NCBI RefSeq assembly: GCF_024055795.1
Contig: NZ_JAMXMY010000016.1
Span: 124,001 to 188,000, forward strand
DNA length: 64,000 bases
Source: Actinoallomurus purpureus
GTDB lineage: Bacteria > Actinomycetota > Actinomycetes > Streptosporangiales > Streptosporangiaceae
Direction: 5' to 3'
In this document: positions 7,785 to 16,337 of the stretch, in pieces
Position numbering within the stretch: the stretch's first letter is position 1
Layout of the letters: each line of letters begins with the position of its first letter
Notes under the pieces: model-generated
Told to the model about the DNA's origin: nothing
The model's input: the letters and a program-made list of their open reading frames with translations, nothing else
Databases searched by the model: none
Position numbers and translations under genes: made by a program

Positions 7785-9428
7785 TCAGGCGATGTTGAAC
7801 TCGGGCTCGGCGGCGATCTCGGCCTCCTCGGCCGCGACGGCGGCGTTGACCTGTTCACTGGCCACGGCGATCCGTACGGCGAAGAAGTAGACGGCGAGGG
7901 CGAACACCGCGACCGTCAGGATGTCGACCCACTCGGGCAGCACCTTGAGGCCGCCGTAGCGGCCCAGGGACCCGATGAGGATCATGCCGCCCAGCCAGGG
8001 CCAGACCCACATGGCCGCGGGCCAGTTGAGGGCCGACCGCTCGGCCTGCGGGCTCGTCGCCCGTGTCACCGCGAAGATCCCCAGACCCACCAGGATGGCG
8101 AGCCCGAGCTTCCACTCGGCCTGGAAGCTCGACCAGTAGATGATCAGATTGGCACAGACGAAGCCGACGGGCGCCAGCACCCGGTGTGCCGGAAGGCGGT
8201 ACGGCCGGGGCCGCTCCGGGTCGCGCAGCCGCAGGGCCCGCAGGGCGATCGGCCCGAAGGCGTACATGATGGCGGTCGCCGACGTGACGAGGCCGACCAG
8301 GGACTGCCAGCTCGGGAACGGCAGGAACGCGATCTCCCCGACGACGAAGGCGATGATGATCGAGACGGTCGGCACGCCCTTCCGGCTGACCTTGGCCACC
8401 CCACTCGGCACCGACCTCTCCCGGCCGAGCGCGTACGACAGCCGGGACGACGTCGCGACGTACACCAGGCCCGTCCCGGCGGGTGAGATCACCGCGTCCG
8501 CGTAGAGCAGGACCGCCAGCCACGCGGCGCCGGCTCCGATCGCGAGCGTCGCGTACGGGCCGAAGTCGCCCTTGCCCACGGGGCTGGCCCAGCCGTGCGC
8601 GAGGTTGGCGGGGTTCAGGGCGCCGATGAAGGCGATCTCCAGCAGGATGTAGACGACCGTGCCGATCGCGGTGGCCGTGATGACCGCGCGCGAGATGTCA
8701 CGTTGCGGCTTCTTCGCTTCTCCGGCCATTTGGATCGCCTGTTCGAAGCCCTGCAGGGCGAAGACGACACCGGCCGGGAGCGCGGCGAAGATGCCGTGCG
8801 CTCCGAACGGCATGAACCCGCCGCCCGCCGTGAAGTTGGACGCGTGGAAGGTCAGCAGCAGGAGGACGACCACGGTGAGCAGCGGAATGGCCGTCTTCCA
8901 GATCACGGTGATCCCGTTGGACTCGGCGAGGAGCTTGACGCCGACGACGTTGATGATCGTGAACAGGAGCATGAAGACGGTGGCGACCAGCAGGCCGGCG
9001 CCGGTCAGCGTCCCGTCGGTGTGCAACAGCGTGATGTTGTTCTTCACCCAGCTGATGTGGTCGCAGTAGGACAGCGTCGCCTCGACCTCGATCGGGGCGA
9101 TCGCCACCGCCTGTATCCAGGCCATCCAGCCGGCCGTGAAGCCGACCAGCGGGCCGAACGCGAAACTCGGGAACCGCGCGGTGCCTCCGGCGACGGGGTA
9201 GGTCGCGCCGAGTTCGGCGTGCACGAGGGCGAGGATGGCCAGCATGACGGCGGCGAGGATCCAGGACAGGAGCGAGGCGGGCCCGGCGATGGTCGCCGCG
9301 GTGAGCGCTCCCAGCAACCAGCCGGATCCGATGATCGATCCGAGCGATACGAACATCAGTCCCCAGAAACCGACGTCCCGCCGTAGGTGTCGTCCCGAAT
9401 CGACGGATCCGGTGGTAGTGGGCGCCAT
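7785..9428 (-). CDS. APC-family amino-acid permease
   Basis: 547-residue integral membrane transporter with about 12-13 hydrophobic segments. The first carries G-S-I-I-G-S-G-W-L, the unwound TM1 substrate-binding motif of APC permeases. A charged C-terminal tail (E-E-A-E-I-A-A-E-P-E) faces the cytoplasm. Ahead of the start ATG is a GGGGGCTC-type ribosome site. Substrate cannot be told from sequence; neutral or aromatic amino acids or amines are possible. It stands alone, with a lower-GC 400-bp region upstream. Confidence 0.9.
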   Translation of the reverse strand: MAPTTTGSVDSGRHLRRDVGFWGLMFVSLGSIIGSGWLLGALTAATIAGPASLLSWILAAVMLAILALVHAELGATYPVAGGTARFPSFAFGPLVGFTAGWMAWIQAVAIAPIEVEATLSYCDHISWVKNNITLLHTDGTLTGAGLLVATVFMLLFTIINVVGVKLLAESNGITVIWKTAIPLLTVVVLLLLTFHASNFTAGGGFMPFGAHGIFAALPAGVVFALQGFEQAIQMAGEAKKPQRDISRAVITATAIGTVVYILLEIAFIGALNPANLAHGWASPVGKGDFGPYATLAIGAGAAWLAVLLYADAVISPAGTGLVYVATSSRLSYALGRERSVPSGVAKVSRKGVPTVSIIIAFVVGEIAFLPFPSWQSLVGLVTSATAIMYAFGPIALRALRLRDPERPRPYRLPAHRVLAPVGFVCANLIIYWSSFQAEWKLGLAILVGLGIFAVTRATSPQAERSALNWPAAMWVWPWLGGMILIGSLGRYGGLKVLPEWVDILTVAVFALAVYFFAVRIAVASEQVNAAVAAEEAEIAAEPEFNIA

Positions 9429-9824
9429 AGAGCCCCCTTCACGAGTGATGGCGGAGTACGGCCGCCGACGACGGTGAACGACCTATCTCCCCGCATGTCG
9501 GGCGTACCGGTTCGCAAGTGATGTTAATTGACGTTAAGGACATGCCGTATTGCACGTCAACGCCGGAGAGAGACTAAATCGATACAGCCTCGAATGCAAT
9601 GAGCGACCAGTACACCAGCGCGCCCAGAGACTCCTATGGGGGCATAGGTGCCATTGGTGAGATTGATCCTCCAGTGACATCAGAGATCCCACCCGGCCGC
9701 CAGCATTCGGCCTTCTACCGCAAATAACGCGATCTATCCCTCAAAACGGAATGTCCGAAGAACGCGGCGCTTTGCCATCCCCAGAAAGGGAGAAGACGCT
9801 TACCGACCCTGCCCCGCGCGACGG
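9429..9824. other. Non-coding, lower-GC region upstream of the permease
   Basis: About 400 bp with noticeably more A/T than its surroundings. It should hold the permease promoter (minus strand). Two direct 10-bp repeats T-G-A-T/C-G-T-T-A-A-T/G occur at 9519-9538 and could be a regulator site. A 42-codon ORF at 9599-9727 is listed separately. Otherwise I see nothing. Confidence 0.4.
9599..9727 (+). CDS. Possible 42-residue peptide (uncertain)
   Basis: ATG at 9599 to TAA at 9725-9727 encodes a 42-residue hydrophilic peptide with S-Y-G-G-I-G-A-I-G and I-P-P-G-R stretches, ending H-S-A-F-Y-R-K. No good ribosome site precedes it, and codon use is not strongly GC-biased, unlike its neighbours. It might be a genuine small acquired peptide or a chance frame. 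Confidence 0.22.
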   Translation: MSDQYTSAPRDSYGGIGAIGEIDPPVTSEIPPGRQHSAFYRK

Positions 9825-10187
9825 TCACACGCGCCGGACGCGCAGCCGCCAGAGGGACGTCACCTCGGCGGCGCGAGCGGCGTGCAGCGGGTCGGCCGGA
9901 TCGGTGGCGCGCGGATGGCGCGGCCGTACGTCCGACCAGGCGATCGTCTCCAGCCCTGCGGCGTCGAACGCGGCGAACAGTTCGGCGCGCGACCGCAGCC
10001 CCAGGTGCTCGGCCCCGCGCCAGAGGACGGCCGTGCCCTCGCACGCCAGGTGGTAGGCGTCGTCGGCGGTCATGCGATCGTCCGCGACCTCCACACACCG
10101 GGGCGGCGGCGCGCCGTTCTCGGACCGCCAGCGGGCGGAGTGCTCCGTCCCCGCCTCGGTCCAGCGAACGACCTGTCGCGCTTCCAC
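9825..10187 (-). pseudogene. Truncated class I methyltransferase (N-terminal fragment)
   Basis: A GTG at 10187 with a strong GGAGGA site starts a 120-residue frame. The first about 58 residues match the N-terminus of the actinobacterial methyltransferase-small (PF05175-type) family: A-R-W-R-S-E-N-G-A-P-P-P, then D-D-R-M-T-A-D-D-A-Y-H-L-A and T-A-V-L-W-R-G. Full-length members are several hundred residues, with a SAM-binding core that is absent here. The remaining 60 residues may come from the far C-terminus after an internal deletion; I do not recognise them. Probably non-functional, despite intact initiation signals. Confidence 0.55.
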
Positions 10188-10455
10188 AGCGATCCTCCGC
10201 TCCCCGGTCACGCGGAAGGTAGGAGAAGGCGGGTTTCCCCTCAACCGAATTACGCCCGCAAGAGGCCCGGGGCCACGGTCGGGCCGGCGTCGGGCGATCA
10301 AGTGTCGCAGCTCGAACCGGCGACCGCCCCTCGTGCGCCGCACGATCGGCGTACGCCTACCGTTAACAAACCTATTCTTTTCCGGCCGGAGGCAGGGACT
10401 GCGGCCACCGCACGGGTTAGATTGAGACGCACCTGAGCGGGGGCTGGAGGTGCCT

Positions 10456-11244
10456 GTGGCCGAGCGAGCACGGCTGCCGGGGAGCGTCGACGCACACACG
10501 CCGACCGACGCACGGGTGTACGACTACGCGCTCGGCGGCAAGGACAACTACGCGGTGGACCGCGTCCTGGCCCACCGGATCCTGTCCGTGGCCCCCGAGG
10601 CGCGCCACCTGGCGGCGGAGAACAACCGCTTCGCCCGGCGCGCCGTCCGCCACCTGCGCGCCGCGGGCGTACGCCAGTTCCTCGACATCGGCTGCGGCCT
10701 GCCCAAGCGCGTCAACGTCCACGATCTGGCGGGTCCCGAGGCCCAGGTCGTCTACGTCGACTACGACCCGGTCGCCGTGACGCACTACGAGGCGACGCTG
10801 TCCGGCGGGTCGTCCGCCGCCGTCGTCCACGCCGACGCCAGGCATCCGGAGCGGATCCTCGGCGACCCGGTGGTCTCCGACGTGATCGACTTCGACCGGC
10901 CGGTCGCGCTGCTGTTCAGCTTCCTGCTCCACGTCATCGATGACGAGGAGCACCCGGCCCGGATCGTGCGGCGTTTCCGCGACGCGGTCGCCCCGGGTAG
11001 CCATCTCGTCATCTCGCACGCCACCTTCGAGGAGAAGGCCCCCGAGGCCGTCCAGGCGGTGGAGGACATCTTCGCGGAGCTGCGCGAGTCGCTCACGCTG
11101 CGCCGGCGAGAGGCGATCCTGGGCTTCTTCGACGGGTTCGAGCTCCTCGAGCCCGGTCTGGTCCCGGCCCCCGCTTGGCGGCCCGACCGCCCGTACCGTA
11201 CGCCGTCGGGCTGGCTGCTCGCGGGAGTGGGCCGCAAGCCCTGA
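10456..11244 (+). CDS. SAM-dependent methyltransferase, DUF574 family
   Basis: 262 residues, full length for the DUF574 (Methyltransf_19, PF04672) family, which is expanded in actinomycetes. It has the signature A-R-V-Y-D-Y-A-L-G-G-K-D-N-Y near the N-terminus, the SAM motif F-L-D-I-G-C-G-L-P, then V-Y-V-D-Y-D-P-V and H-A-D-A-R. The GTG at 10456 is preferred because GGAGG lies 5 nt upstream; another in-frame GTG at 10450 overlaps that site. The methyl acceptor is unknown. A second family member, cut by the window edge, lies at 63472. Confidence 0.9.
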   Translation: MAERARLPGSVDAHTPTDARVYDYALGGKDNYAVDRVLAHRILSVAPEARHLAAENNRFARRAVRHLRAAGVRQFLDIGCGLPKRVNVHDLAGPEAQVVYVDYDPVAVTHYEATLSGGSSAAVVHADARHPERILGDPVVSDVIDFDRPVALLFSFLLHVIDDEEHPARIVRRFRDAVAPGSHLVISHATFEEKAPEAVQAVEDIFAELRESLTLRRREAILGFFDGFELLEPGLVPAPAWRPDRPYRTPSGWLLAGVGRKP

Positions 11245-11258
11245 CACCTGCCGACGAC

Positions 11259-11295
11259 GGACAGGGCGGGGGCGCCGCGCGCCCCCGCCCTGTCC
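11259..11295. terminator. Bidirectional terminator hairpin
   Basis: Perfect 16-bp GC-rich stem (11259-11274 with 11280-11295) and 5-nt loop between the convergent DUF574 and NlpC/P60-like genes. Confidence 0.8.
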
Positions 11296-11306
11296 TCACC
11301 GCACCG

Positions 11307-11894
11307 TCAGCGAACCTTCTTCGGGTGGTACGCGTGGTACTGGCTGCCCGCGCTCAGCCCGTACTTGAGAACGCGGTGGTCGGTGCCGTAATGACCCCGC
11401 TGCTCGAAGGCCCAGTAGCCGACGATCTTCCCCTTCTTGTTCCTGACCCATTTCTCGAAGATCACGACGTGCCGGGTGTTGCTGGTGCCCGATGCGTCGA
11501 TGACCAGGTCGCCCTTCAGCAGCTGGGACATCCTGATGGGCTTCGTGTATCTACTCGTCGCGAGCGCCTGGGTGTTGGGCCCCGGCTTGGACAGGCCGAG
11601 CGCCATCGACACGTACCCGGAGCAGTCTCGGCGGTAGCCGTTGTGGTACGGCTTGTTCTGGCTGTACGGGACCCGATTCGCCGTGTGCGGGTGCCACGTG
11701 TAGGCCCGCACGATCACCGTGCGTCGGCTGATGTAGGCAGTGGCCGAAACGTCCTGCGCGGCCGGGCGGGCGGCGGCGTGGAGGGCCGCCGGGGCGGCGG
11801 GGGCCGCGGTGGCGCCGGCGGGCAGGCCGAGCGCGGCGGCGGCGCCCAGCGCGACGGCGCCGAGCCCTATTCGGAGCGTACGAGACGCGGTCAT
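11307..11894 (-). CDS. Secreted NlpC/P60-like cysteine hydrolase
   Basis: 195 residues with a Sec signal peptide (about 1-32). The catalytic domain has the NlpC/P60-type nucleophile motif R-D-C-S-G-Y-V (Cys91) and the general-base His in T-R-H-V-V-I-F (His142), so the dyad is intact. Such enzymes cleave peptide bonds in peptidoglycan stem peptides; the exact bond is unknown. AAGGAG sits 5-6 nt before the ATG. About 360 bp upstream, in the opposite direction, is a membrane-bound paralogue that has lost both catalytic residues. Confidence 0.85.
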   Translation of the reverse strand: MTASRTLRIGLGAVALGAAAALGLPAGATAAPAAPAALHAAARPAAQDVSATAYISRRTVIVRAYTWHPHTANRVPYSQNKPYHNGYRRDCSGYVSMALGLSKPGPNTQALATSRYTKPIRMSQLLKGDLVIDASGTSNTRHVVIFEKWVRNKKGKIVGYWAFEQRGHYGTDHRVLKYGLSAGSQYHAYHPKKVR

Positions 11895-12256
11895 GAAGCT
11901 CCTTACGTGAACACTGATGGAGTCTTCGGCCGTTCCGCGAGCGTCGCATGAGCCCCGCGGCGATCGGCCAGCGGCCACGTTAGGGAGAAAGGCCGCCGCT
12001 CCACCATGGGTATCGGCCATCAAGGGACAGAGCAGGAGCCCCCGAGGCTTTGAGCAGCTGAGACATCCACTTTTCGGGACATGCCCGAGACAGTGGGACA
12101 CGGATCCCGGCTCCCGACGGACGAACCTCCTTCACACCTGCTTCGATCGTGGCCGCTACGGTCGGCGTCCGGATGACTCCGATAACGATGAACCGCACAG
12201 CGCCGCCCTGCGTCATAGGAGCGGTCGACTTTCGGTCCGAAAGCCGAGGGAGAACA

Positions 12257-13345
12257 TTGGATCGACGACAGATGACGCGGACCCGCGTGAGCCGGACCCG
12301 CCAACTGCGCCCATTGCCCGAAAAGCTCCCCGAGACCACCCGGACTCTGCTGGAGGAACTGCGCGCCCTGAAGGACCGCTCCGGGTACGACCTTCGCGCT
12401 CTGGAGGGGAAGACCTACGCGAGCCGATCATCCTGGGGACGCTGGCTCAGCGGAGAGACCTGGATCCCCTGTGAGGCCGTCGAGACGATGGCCGAGCTCT
12501 GCGGCGGTGACAAGCAGCGCCTCCGGGGCCTGTGGCACCGCGCGGACGACAACCGGCGTACCCCACCGGCCACGCAGCCCGCCGACGGCGGCGTACCGCC
12601 CGCCGAGAAGGAGCCGGAGGGGGCGACGCCCGAGCACACCGCGCCGGAGGGCGCGACGCGCGATCGCACCGCGCCGGAGGGGACTGCGCGCACCGCGCTG
12701 GAGGGGGCTGCGCTCGATGACACCGCGTCGGTGCGCCCCGACGCGGCGGCGTCCCGACGGCCCGGCGTCCCACGGCGGCGGATGCTCCACATCGGCACCA
12801 CCCTCGGCTGCTCGGTCGCCGCCGGCGCGATCGGCCTGGCCGCTGGGCTGTCGCACCGGCCCGAACCGGCCCAGCGACCGCACCCGGCCCCCACCTACGC
12901 GCAGTGGATCACCCGGCCCCAGATCCTCGGGCGCGCTCTGACATGGAACCCCCGCAGCGATCAGCGCGTCCCGTACGACCAGTCGAAGAACCACGGCGGC
13001 TTCCGCACGGACGGCTCCGGGTACGCCTCCATGGCGCTCGGCCTTCCCGCGCCGGGGCCCAACTCCACCGACCTCGCCTGGGGGGGCTACACCCGGCAGA
13101 TCCCCCCGTCGAAGCTGCGCCCCGGTGATCTGATCATCAATGCCACCGGCCTGGCGAGCACCCGGCAGGTCGCGATCTTCGAGAAGTGGGCGAACACCGC
13201 GCACACGGCCTACTGGGTCTACCAGCAGCGCCGCGCGTACGGCACGGATCATCTGGTGCTCCGCTACGACATGTCGGAGAACAGCCCCTACCACGCCTAC
13301 CGGCCGCTGAACATTCATGAACAGCCGGCGGTGCCCCCCTCCTGA
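12257..13345 (+). CDS. HTH-transmembrane-pseudo-NlpC/P60 fusion protein
   Basis: About 362 residues from a TTG at 12257 (GAGGGAGA just upstream; an ATG at 12272 is the alternative). Residues about 25-90 form a helix-turn-helix domain of the kind common in actinomycetes (S-S-W-G-R-W-L-S-G). Residues 95-170 are a Pro/Glu/Ala/Thr linker with repeated A-P-E-G-A/T units. Residues 176-199 form one transmembrane helix, and the rest is an extracytoplasmic domain closely similar to the secreted neighbour. The nucleophile Cys is Gly253 (T-D-G-S-G-Y) and the His is Gln304 (T-R-Q-V-A-I-F), so it cannot be an active cysteine peptidase. It probably senses rather than cuts. Confidence 0.82.
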   Translation: MDRRQMTRTRVSRTRQLRPLPEKLPETTRTLLEELRALKDRSGYDLRALEGKTYASRSSWGRWLSGETWIPCEAVETMAELCGGDKQRLRGLWHRADDNRRTPPATQPADGGVPPAEKEPEGATPEHTAPEGATRDRTAPEGTARTALEGAALDDTASVRPDAAASRRPGVPRRRMLHIGTTLGCSVAAGAIGLAAGLSHRPEPAQRPHPAPTYAQWITRPQILGRALTWNPRSDQRVPYDQSKNHGGFRTDGSGYASMALGLPAPGPNSTDLAWGGYTRQIPPSKLRPGDLIINATGLASTRQVAIFEKWANTAHTAYWVYQQRRAYGTDHLVLRYDMSENSPYHAYRPLNIHEQPAVPPS

Positions 13346-13394
13346 AACCGGGCGGCGCGGAGGATCACGGCCGACCGCACTGAGACAATGACGT

Positions 13395-14255
13395 ATGGGT
13401 TTGATCGCGACAGTAGGGCTCGTCCTGCACCCCGAACGCGACTGCAAGGGCGTCATGACCAGCATCACCGGATGGGCGCGCTCCCGGAACGCCCAGGTCC
13501 TCGGGCTGCCCGGGGAGATCGCCCGCATCGACGGTGATGTCACCGCCGTGGAGCCGGAGAGTCTGGCCGAGCGCGCCGACCTCATCGTCAGCCTGGGCGG
13601 GGACGGCACGATGCTGCGCGCCATGCGGCTCACCTGCCGGCGCGGGACCCCCGTCCTCGGCGTCAACCTCGGGCGGCTCGGTTTCCTCGCCGAGATCGAC
13701 GTGCCGGAGCTGGACGCCGCGCTCAGCGCCATCGACGCCCACCGCTTCACCGTGGAGACGCGCAGTGGGCTCCGGGCGACCGCGGACGGCATGGACGCGA
13801 TCGCCTTCAACGACGTCGCCCTGGAACGCGTGCCCGGCCGCGGCATACCCGTCGTCGAACTCTGCGTGGAGGGCAACCCCTTCGTCCGGTACGCCGCGGA
13901 CGCCGTCGTCGTGGCGACGCCCACCGGCTCCACGGCCTACAACTTCTCCGCCGGCGGGCCGATCGTCTCCCCCAGCGCCGAAGGCCTGCTCGTCACGCCG
14001 GTCGCGCCGCACTCCGCCTTCAACCGCGCGCTGTTCCTGTCCTCGCAGGAGAAGCTCTCGCTGCGAATCCTGCCGTCCAGCGGTGCCGTCGCCGTCGAGG
14101 CCGACGGCCGGCTCATCGGCCATATGAACCCCGGCGACGTCCTCGACCTGGCGACGCTCCCCGCCGCGGCCAGCGTCGTACGACTCGGGGAGACGACCTT
14201 CTACCAGCGCGCGCAACGACGCCTCCGGCTCCTGGGCTCGGTCGAGGCCGACTGA
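13395..14255 (+). CDS. nadK: NAD kinase
   Basis: 286 residues. Phosphorylates NAD to NADP using ATP or polyphosphate. Motifs: G-G-D-G-T at residues 69-73 (nucleotide binding and catalysis), G-V-N-L-G-R-L-G-F-L-A, and the NAD-binding T-P-T-G-S-T-A-Y-N-F-S-A-G-G-P. Third-position GC fits the neighbours. The start ATG lies 50 bp after the fusion protein gene. The genome may well encode another NAD kinase elsewhere, as many actinomycetes carry two; that cannot be seen here. Confidence 0.93.
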   Translation: MGLIATVGLVLHPERDCKGVMTSITGWARSRNAQVLGLPGEIARIDGDVTAVEPESLAERADLIVSLGGDGTMLRAMRLTCRRGTPVLGVNLGRLGFLAEIDVPELDAALSAIDAHRFTVETRSGLRATADGMDAIAFNDVALERVPGRGIPVVELCVEGNPFVRYAADAVVVATPTGSTAYNFSAGGPIVSPSAEGLLVTPVAPHSAFNRALFLSSQEKLSLRILPSSGAVAVEADGRLIGHMNPGDVLDLATLPAAASVVRLGETTFYQRAQRRLRLLGSVEAD

Positions 14256-14455
14256 CGCCGAGGTCGTCGTCGCGGTGCCACCACGGCAACGACGATGAAG
14301 GCAGCGCCGCGGCCGTACGCGCGCTCGTCCGAGCCGCCGGTTCCCCACGCCGCCCGGCAGCGGGGCACCCTGCCCGATGCCGGGTGCCGACGCCCCGGAC
14401 CGGCGGACTCGCGCCGACGACGGCGGCAGGACGGTGCTGCGGATATTCTCGCCCT

Positions 14456-15235
14456 GTGGCGACACAGACCGGTGGCGGTTCGATCGACAAGGCGCTCACG
14501 GTGCTGGAGGCACTGGCCGAGCACAGCCGGGTGACCGACATCGCGGCCGGCACCGGGCTCCCGAAGTCGACCGTGCACCGCATTCTCCAGTCCCTCGTCG
14601 GATGGGGGTTCGCCCGCACCGACGGCAACGGCGGCTACGTCCCCGGTCCGCGCATCCTCACCCTGGCGGGCAAGGTGATGAGCCGGTTCGACCCGGCGCA
14701 GCACGCCGACTCGGCCCTGCAGGCGCTGCGCGACCGTACGGGCTTCACCGTGCACTTCGCGGTCCGCAGCGGTGACGAGGCCGTCTACGTGCGCAAGCTC
14801 GAGGGCCTGCGGCCGTACCAGATGGGGTCGCGAGTGGGCATGAGCCTTCGGCTGCACTCCACCTCGATCGGCAAGGCGATCCTCGCCCAGCTGTCCGACC
14901 GGGAGGTCACCGCGATCACGTCGCGGACCGGGCTGGAGCCGCGCACCCAGCACACGATCACGGATGTCGACGCGCTGGTCGCCCACCTGGCCGAGGTCCG
15001 GCGTCGCGGCTACGCCGTCGACGACGAGGAGAACGAGCGGGGCATCCGCTGTGTGGGCGCACCCGTCTTCGACCACACCGGCGCGGTCATGGGCGGCATC
15101 TCCGTCTCCGGGCTCGCGTTCGAGGTCGACGCCGGCGATGCGGCCCTGATGGCCGAGGTGGTCGCCGCCGCCCGCGACGTCTCGCTGGCCATGGGCGCGC
15201 CGCCCGACCGTGTGCCCGCGCCCGCCCCGGCCTGA
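14456..15235 (+). CDS. IclR-family transcriptional regulator (KDG-module type)
   Basis: 259 residues from a GTG at 14456. The N-terminal winged helix (residues about 8-70) includes T-D-I-A-A-G-T-G-L-P-K-S-T-V-H-R-I-L. The effector domain follows, with E-R-G-I-R-C-V-G-A-P-V-F and G-G-I-S-V-S-G. It is convergent with genes for 2-keto-3-deoxygluconate kinase and KDPG aldolase, so it probably controls them. A palindrome in the aldolase promoter region fits an IclR operator. The 3' end is imperfectly repeated just beyond its stop codon. Confidence 0.9.
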   Translation: MATQTGGGSIDKALTVLEALAEHSRVTDIAAGTGLPKSTVHRILQSLVGWGFARTDGNGGYVPGPRILTLAGKVMSRFDPAQHADSALQALRDRTGFTVHFAVRSGDEAVYVRKLEGLRPYQMGSRVGMSLRLHSTSIGKAILAQLSDREVTAITSRTGLEPRTQHTITDVDALVAHLAEVRRRGYAVDDEENERGIRCVGAPVFDHTGAVMGGISVSGLAFEVDAGDAALMAEVVAAARDVSLAMGAPPDRVPAPAPA

Positions 15236-15360
15236 CCACCCTCTCATCGGCCCTGCCTGGGCGCTCCGCCCGACCGGGTGCCCGCGCCCGCACCCGCCTG
15301 ACCGCCCCCTCGACCGCGTGCCCGCCCCGGCCCGCCTGCCGCGTCCGCTCCCGGCACCGC
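15196..15360 (+). repeat. Imperfect tandem copies of the iclR 3' end
   Basis: The last codons of the regulator plus stop (coding P-P-D-R-V-P-A-P-A, then TGA) recur downstream at about 15260-15305, and partially at 15308-15340, with a few substitutions. The repeats fill most of the gap to the convergent KDG kinase. No independent gene is seen here. Confidence 0.55.
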
Positions 15361-15401
15361 CCGGCCCGCGTCGGCCTGAGCGGAGACGCCGCCGATGAGG
15401 G

Positions 15402-16337
15402 TCAGCCGGTCGAAAGAAGGCGCTCGATCTCGGCGGCCGTGGCGACCCGGCCGGTGCCGCCCTGACCGCCGAGACAGATCGACGCCGCCGCCGCGCCGGC
15501 GCGTACGGCGTCCACGATCGACGCGCCGCGCGCGAGTCGTGCGGTGAGCGCGCCGCCGAAGGCGTCTCCCGCTCCGGTCGCGTCGACGATCTCCGCGGCC
15601 GGAACGGCCGGCAGGTGTCGTCGCTCCGGGCCGCTCGCGAGGTACACGCCGTCGGCGCCGCAGGTCACCGCGACGGCGGCCGCGCCGAGGCCGAGGCAGG
15701 CCTCGGCCGCGCGTTCGGGGTCGGTGGTGTCCAGCAGCGCCGAGGTGTCGGCGGGGCAGGACGGCAGGACCAGGGCGGCCCGCGGCGCGACCTTCGCCAG
15801 GACCTCGCGGGCGTCGCCCGGCGTGGTGAGGCGGCTGCGGAAGTTCGGGTCGTAGACGACCTTGCCGCGGGCCGTCTCGGCCGCGTGGACCACGGCGGCG
15901 GCGCAGGACTCCGACAGCGCGGCGGTGATGCCGCTCAGCAGTACCGCCCCCGCCTCCGCGACGGGCGCGAGGTCGACGTCGGAGGGGCCGAGCCGGGAGG
16001 CCGCGCTGCCGGAACGCAGGTAGGCGAAGGCACGCGTGCCGAGCGGGTCCGCGCCGACGGCGTACGCCCCAGTGTGTCCCGGTCCGCGCCGCATCCAGCG
16101 GGTGTCGACGCCGTGCCGGGCCGCGAAGGCGACCAGCCGGTCGCCGAACTCGTCCTCGCCGGTGCGCGTGACGAGGGCGACGTGGGCCCCGGCCGCCGCG
16201 GCGGCGACCGCCGCGTTGAGCGCGTCGCCCGAGAAGGACAGCCGGAAGGTGTCCGCGTGGGTCAGGGGGCCGGCCGCCGAGAACTCGACCATCGGCTCAC
16301 CGATGACGACGACGTCGGGGACGTCGCCGCGGCTCAC
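15402..16337 (-). CDS. kdgK: 2-keto-3-deoxygluconate kinase (PfkB family)
   Basis: 311-residue ribokinase-fold enzyme that phosphorylates KDG to KDPG with ATP. It has the substrate-side G-E-P-M-V-E-F and F-S-G-D-A-L-N-A-A-V motifs typical of KDG kinases, N-F-R-S-R-L, and the catalytic D-A-T-G-A-G-D-A-F. The GTG start at 16337 overlaps the aldolase stop in GTGA, so the two genes are translationally coupled. With the downstream-acting aldolase it completes KDG breakdown to pyruvate and glyceraldehyde 3-phosphate. Confidence 0.88.
   Translation of the reverse strand: MSRGDVPDVVVIGEPMVEFSAAGPLTHADTFRLSFSGDALNAAVAAAAAGAHVALVTRTGEDEFGDRLVAFAARHGVDTRWMRRGPGHTGAYAVGADPLGTRAFAYLRSGSAASRLGPSDVDLAPVAEAGAVLLSGITAALSESCAAAVVHAAETARGKVVYDPNFRSRLTTPGDAREVLAKVAPRAALVLPSCPADTSALLDTTDPERAAEACLGLGAAAVAVTCGADGVYLASGPERRHLPAVPAAEIVDATGAGDAFGGALTARLARGASIVDAVRAGAAAASICLGGQGGTGRVATAAEIERLLSTG

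Follow-up and report, generated by a model that had tools for sequence, protein, structure and literature searches.

Why should a predicted membrane protein that joins a helix-turn-helix (HTH) domain to a disarmed copy of a wall hydrolase be encoded divergently from an intact, secreted copy of the same enzyme? This question is raised by positions 11,307–13,345 of a stretch of 64,000 nucleotides (nt) from Actinoallomurus purpureus (assembly GCF_024055795.1, contig NZ_JAMXMY010000016.1, positions 124,001–188,000, forward strand; GTDB lineage Bacteria; Actinomycetota; Actinomycetes; Streptosporangiales; Streptosporangiaceae). The whole stretch is called the window below, and all coordinates are relative to it. 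We propose, with a probability of roughly 0.73, that the fusion protein is a membrane one-component regulator with a dead hydrolase outside, an HTH inside and a DNA array on the hydrolase promoter.

The fusion gene (12257..13345, plus strand) is read from a TTG at 12257, with ATG at 12272 or GTG at 12284 as possible starts. According to Pfam and a structure model, its product consists of an HTH_31 domain of DNA-binding type (12332..12559; model helices 21–96), a disordered linker (12560..12790; of low confidence in the model and fast-evolving by dN/dS), a single predicted transmembrane (TM) helix (12791..12856; model residues 174–195) and an outer NlpC/P60 domain (12905..13315; homology and model), all on the plus strand and in this order. 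The TM helix and the topology are taken from the model and from the Arg-rich flank just ahead of the helix. The divergent gene (11307..11894, minus strand) encodes a protein of 195 amino acids with a signal peptide recognized by eye and a domain at 11310–11756, which is 50% identical to the outer domain of the fusion; the models of both outer domains adopt the NlpC/P60 fold. An earlier interpretation of this DNA, made from its letters alone and referred to here as the sequence-only reading, had described an HTH, a linker, one TM helix and an outer domain like that of the 11307 protein. The identity and the models bear this description out, and the fusion has a one-component layout, with the domain of DNA-binding type, the TM helix and the outer domain all on a single chain.

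The fused domain has lost three residues that are kept in the secreted copy. By domain alignment, Cys91 (11622..11624) and His142 (11469..11471) of the hydrolase, both catalytic and encoded on the minus strand, correspond to Gly253 (13013..13015) and Gln304 (13166..13168) on the plus strand, exactly as named in the sequence-only reading. That reading was right that both catalytic residues are gone, but a third has changed as well: Glu164 (11403..11405, minus strand) is replaced by Gln323 (13223..13225, plus strand). We regard Glu164 as the probable third catalytic residue because RipA and RipB are described as using a Cys-His-Glu triad (PMC12067865). With the Cys-His-third-residue set of NlpC/P60 hydrolases in place the secreted copy is predicted to be active, and the fused copy, judged by its sequence, lacks this set.

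These replacements are not peculiar to the window. We compared 97 distinct domains, comprising 59 unfused domains with the Cys, 27 fused domains and 11 other dead rows, among them the broken fusion of A. soli (L062) and L082, which is truncated at a contig end. All 27 fused domains have Gly at the Cys position and Gln at the Glu position, and the His position is occupied by Glu (18), Gln (4), Ala (3) or Met (2). A check on whether the Gly/Gln pair of the window is conserved, suggested along with the sequence-only reading, is thus answered positively for the Gly and negatively for the Gln at the His position. Cys, His and Glu are kept in the secreted partners of all 27 intact divergent pairs, as are His and Glu in each of the 59 unfused Cys domains. 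Columns were called discriminating if they were well filled, with a residue fixed to 90% or more in active domains and shared by no more than 15% of the fused ones; they comprise the three catalytic positions, a Gly three residues after the Glu, and four others. A tree that leaves out four discriminating positions splits dead from active domains by one change, with weak support (26).

The claim that the sequence around the lost residues is preserved also stood up. In an alignment of 22 fusions (A3, also used for the fusion model; L081 was left out for a stop in the given reference), the fused dead domain had a median dN/dS of 0.49, the linker one of 0.94 and the HTH one of 0.34; the value for the active domain was 0.40. 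These figures serve comparison between regions only. By this measure of coding sequence, constraint on the fused domain comes close to that on the active one and exceeds that on the linker.

A search with the fusion as query covered 198 genomes, of which 35 gave some kind of match, and 23 loci came from a pattern scan run on named genomes. As the patterns were derived from dead domains, these loci are selected for dead copies; surveys with the active protein as query lessen this bias. All sets together contain 27 distinct intact divergent pairs, which are related to one another, and the arrangement is found in Actinoallomurus, Actinomadura, Spirillospora, Sphaerisporangium and Planobispora. 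The pairing on which the sequence-only reading had relied is, in other words, conserved. In a survey of the family, 14 of 150 genomes had a match to the active query: seven with pairs, P. takensis with a locus cut at the contig end, four with close unpaired copies and two with distant ones. The corresponding survey of Actinomadura/Spirillospora, the genus of S. albida, gave matches in 36 of 65 genomes, of which 18 (including S. albida) have the intact pair, one (G249) has remnants and 17 have unpaired copies only; ten of the paired genomes harbor an unpaired copy in addition. A dead fused domain facing an intact secreted one was present in all 18 pairs of this genus. Neither survey yielded an intact fusion without its hydrolase, nor a fused domain with intact catalytic residues, a case that would have spoken against the sequence-only reading.

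Broken versions of the locus also occur. In G249 (L134, 2687–3206) remnants of both genes abut, and both N-terminal halves are missing together with the region between them. The HTH frame of the A. soli fusion is disrupted, with a local duplication at about 5180–5620 of L062; the hydrolase was not found within the 12–18 kb fetched, and the array described below is absent. In L048 (6353–7327) and a like stretch of L049, an N-terminal domain without a Pfam match (searched for L048) is joined to a dead NlpC/P60 domain.

Between the two genes of the window lies an array of short direct repeats, located by motif and spacing scans and all on the plus strand: the operator-like site A (GGGACA, 12024..12029), an extra half-site (GAGACA, 12060..12065), a GGGACA at 12076..12081 (52 bp from site A and 11 bp ahead of site B), the operator-like site B (GAGACA, 12087..12092, 63 bp from site A) and a further GGGACA 8 bp past site B (12095..12100). 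The array was evaluated in 23 loci, namely the window, L044 and 21 of the 23 pattern-scan loci, A. soli (L062) and P. takensis (L082) being left out. Their intergenic regions contain 58 copies of GGGACA in fusion orientation, with at least one in each region, as against 6.0 expected and five on the opposite strand. A same-orientation G[GA]GAC[AG] pair 62–64 bp, or about six helical turns, apart is present in all 23 regions; shuffled controls gave a mean of 0.16 of 23 and a maximum of two in 200 runs. The four pairs added later have it as well (27/27), and it is found before none of the 27 unpaired hydrolase copies of the S. albida genus. Identity of the array stretch between groups is 0.39–0.51, and in the 9.25-Mb genome the array pattern has two matches, one of which is this locus.

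The array also stands at a fixed distance from a putative promoter element. In the window, the minus-strand sequence TAACGT (11977..11982), a −10-like hexamer for the hydrolase gene, lies 41 bp from site A; such a hexamer is found 40–41 bp from site A in all 27 pairs, in the form TANNNT in 22 and CAGNNT in the five loci of Sphaerisporangium and Planobispora. No conserved −35 element of the hydrolase was seen by eye. On the fusion side, CATAAT occurs 96–109 bp past site B in 18 Actinomadura/Spirillospora loci. As a separate observation, the palindrome GTCGATCGAC recurs beside the −10-like hexamer in Actinomadura loci, and GTCGATC is present in 14 of the 23 loci.

Many unpaired hydrolase copies have another kind of upstream element. 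A c-di-AMP riboswitch (RF00379) precedes 26 of the 27 unpaired copies in Actinomadura/Spirillospora (L114, L135–L149 and L151–L160; L150 has none), and these 26 form one supported clade (SH-aLRT 99). RF00379 was detected neither at positions 9000–16000 of the window (none at E≤1), so that we rejected a known riboswitch as an element of the window hydrolase, nor in 20 further paired loci (0/21 in total; the scan left out L055 and L056). The unpaired copies L088, L092 and L090, the last of these in Actinoallomurus, have neither riboswitch nor array.

The repeats recur near HTH genes of other architecture. Among 13 loci of related HTH proteins with other C-termini (L036, L040 and L042 gave no match and were left out), eight have, in the 500 bp ahead of the gene, two same-strand G[GA]GAC[AG] sites no more than 70 bp apart; these eight include near kin, and three (L026, L027 and L029) belong to a single genus within the same class. 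By the same criterion the pair precedes two of 30 top HTH_31 loci and three of 30 TetR loci of this genome (Fisher test against pooled controls, 8.6e-5), the strand of the control loci being that of the longer reading frame and thus uncertain for single loci. In L029, CTGACCTGC, an element found between the sites of many pairs, stands between two GGGACG sites. We also considered whether GGGACA marks HTH_31 genes in general and rejected this, two forward GGGACA occurring in none of the 30 top-scoring HTH_31 loci, out of at least 126 matches, and in one of the 30 TetR loci. Because the top HTH_31 loci lack the doubled motif, we restrict the link to the nearer HTH group, to which GGGACA appears to be tied independently of the hydrolase. 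L031, L034, L035, L037 and L041 encode HTH proteins with long C-termini, presumably NTPase-like, with GGGACA doublets 10 bp apart upstream.

Taking these data together with the predicted topology, we propose that the HTH, on the cytoplasmic side, binds the intergenic array of GGGACA direct repeats, and that the outer domain arose as a duplicate of the hydrolase which lost catalysis and was kept as a binding module. Its likely ligand would be peptide stems cut or released by the hydrolase, wall fragments being more likely than the enzyme itself. Occupancy outside would alter HTH activity inside and so set transcription of the hydrolase gene and probably of the fusion gene too. DNA binding, ligand, topology and sign of regulation are what we infer from sequence; for the last of these we lean towards activation because the array lies upstream of the −10-like hexamer and no conserved −35 element was seen. 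The suggestion in the sequence-only reading that the membrane protein controls the hydrolase gene gains indirect support from an operator-like spaced array that, in the loci scanned, is confined to pairs, and from the similar repeats before related HTH genes. It is tempting to go further, though we would not give this wider scenario even odds: a duplicated hydrolase, disarmed at three positions and put on an HTH-TM chassis, may read the substrate or product of the hydrolase and, in the pairs, replace the c-di-AMP riboswitch of the sister copies; in Planobispora, where further secreted proteins contain almost the same dead domain, sensor and effectors may share a matched binding module.

Several observations weigh against the proposed regulator. 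The His position is variable, which speaks against a single fixed contact at that site. The 62–64 bp spacing was first noticed in the same 23 loci that were used for testing it, and the CAGNNT form of the −10-like hexamer was accepted only after the five loci that have it had been viewed. Five of the 13 HTH relatives have no repeat pair, and the second HTH genes in L026, L027 and L029 have no pair of their own. Lone GGGACA sites, 18 in total, precede 15 of the 27 unpaired copies; most of these share a TGGGACAA context and lie far upstream, towards the distal end of the region scanned. L160, also unpaired, has two GGGACA sites 10 bp apart, and L056, from another genome, has a GGGACG-GGGACA pair 55 bp apart. 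Finally, the HTH model superposes on RodZ too. As for their setting, lone TGGGACAA sites stand before ACGCCTGG and upstream of the riboswitch in L114, L135, L136, L138, L154, L156, L157, L159 and others.

The alternative that survives best leaves the regulator in place and changes its ligand: the outer domain would contact the secreted hydrolase itself, one homologous domain to another, and thereby gauge the amount of enzyme. We consider this unlikely, yet rate it above the other alternatives. The two domains are homologues encoded together in 27 pairs, and RsiV is described as a membrane regulator that binds a wall enzyme directly (PMC4183432). Additional dead copies bear on the same point. 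In five pair loci of Sphaerisporangium and Planobispora (L064, L066, L069, L078 and L079) a dead domain directly follows the active one, with a further dead domain beyond it in four of them, S. rufum being the exception; in both Planobispora loci and in S. rufum the dead domain was seen to lie in the reading frame of the active one. For the two Planobispora species, DNA identity among the fused dead domain and two additional dead copies is 97.6–98.8% within a genome, against 86–88% between species, which suggests gene conversion; no such homogenization was seen in Sphaerisporangium. A matched set of domains would suit enzyme sensing, but the identity is among dead copies and not between dead and active ones (75–79%), and in 22 of the 27 pair loci the fetched stretch contains no secreted dead copy. 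Moreover, 20 columns are invariant across 28 active and dead domains, a pattern that would fit a kept small-ligand site if these columns line the pocket.

A less probable explanation is that the GGGACA array belongs to another regulator, the fusion being a passenger. This genome has at least 126 matches to HTH_31. Lone sites also precede 15 of the 27 unpaired hydrolase copies, and 17 of those 27 copies lie in genomes without a pair; the array could thus serve another regulator. The lone sites weigh slightly against the fusion as regulator and in favor of a passenger. Single motifs occur outside pairs too; within the loci scanned, the spaced array does not, being absent from all 27 unpaired promoters and from the broken pair of A. 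soli, and similar repeat pairs upstream of related HTH genes elsewhere are not what a passenger would lead one to expect.

More doubtful still is a role of the outer domain as a wall anchor, or as a competitor protecting substrate or hydrolase, the HTH having a secondary function. Some weight is lent to it by RipD, which is described as a noncatalytic NlpC/P60 protein that binds peptidoglycan (PMC12067865) and is among the structural matches to the models of both the secreted hydrolase and the fusion, but the HTH and a spaced array at a fixed distance from the −10-like hexamer would go unexplained. A RodZ-like cytoskeletal adaptor, with the HTH contacting an MreB-type filament instead of DNA, would account for the superposition mentioned above and is very improbable. 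That the fused domain is a functionless, decaying duplicate, as the loss of three catalytic-type residues might suggest, we reject, as Gly and Gln are fixed in 27 of 27, dN/dS indicates constraint and the fold is kept in the model.

How does the proposed regulator relate to known systems? ToxR and CadC represent types of one-component transmembrane transcription regulators. With such proteins the fusion shares a cytoplasmic DNA-binding-type domain, a TM helix and an outer domain on one chain, and it differs from them in that a dead copy of the neighboring enzyme serves as its outer domain. Closer at hand are the HTH_31/PG_binding_1 proteins of the same class (assigned by Pfam in L027 and L029), which have the same HTH family and domain order, with a hydrophobic stretch in between recognized by eye, and GGGAC[AG] repeats upstream in L026, L027 and L029; on the outside they have PG_binding_1 in place of a dead enzyme. 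Two other membrane proteins invite comparison, BlaR1, which signals by proteolysis, and RsiV, which is not known to be homologous to its ligand. The outer domain of the BlaR1 sensor is structurally homologous to class D β-lactamases and is reported to keep its acylation residue Ser389 (PMC5957439), whereas the fusion has lost its catalytic residues and carries the HTH on one chain with the outer domain. RsiV controls transcription from the membrane by binding lysozyme, but is described as an anti-σ factor acting through proteolysis (PMC4183432). RipD resembles the predicted outer domain as a noncatalytic peptidoglycan binder; it has Ala-Ser-Glu at the triad positions instead of Gly-(E/Q/A/M)-Gln, and the available part of that report describes no HTH or TM regulator for it (PMC12067865). 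In C. glutamicum, an NlpC-type wall peptidase gene (nlpC) is under dedicated control by a riboswitch (PMC9960051), there at the RNA level by an internal second messenger and here, as proposed, by a membrane protein and a DNA array. In the main text of a survey of transmembrane regulators, NlpC, XRE and RodZ do not appear (PMC10269533). The proposed regulator is a variant of transmembrane regulators and not a new class, because its two ideas are each known separately, RipD being a dead binder of the NlpC/P60 family and BlaR1 a membrane sensor that resembles an enzyme.

Other searches added little. With phmmer, sequences of the PDB gave an unrelated protein as best match (E 0.51), and NCBIfam and PHROGs yielded no useful family. 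Among 15 plasmid records matched by tblastn none spanned 80% of the fusion, and the sole match translated (Streptomyces sp. NBC_00648) is unfused and keeps Cys, His and Glu. In open-licence literature no title or abstract start describes the fusion or a GGGACA operator, which does not prove their absence. The fusion gene is closely followed by a gene that we take to encode an NAD kinase-like protein (13395–14255).

How bacteria beyond the model species sense the turnover of their own wall is poorly known. A receptor made from a dead copy of the enzyme that it controls would be a compact and testable case, consisting of one protein, one array and one target, for which naturally broken versions and a riboswitch-controlled sister group are ready controls. 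The repeats suggest in addition that a group of HTH_31 regulators in actinomycetes uses a DNA code of directly repeated GGGACA sites at defined spacings; such a code would aid the assignment of targets to other members. If the wider scenario sketched above holds, the divergent pairs would have turned internal control by c-di-AMP into feedback from outside the cell.
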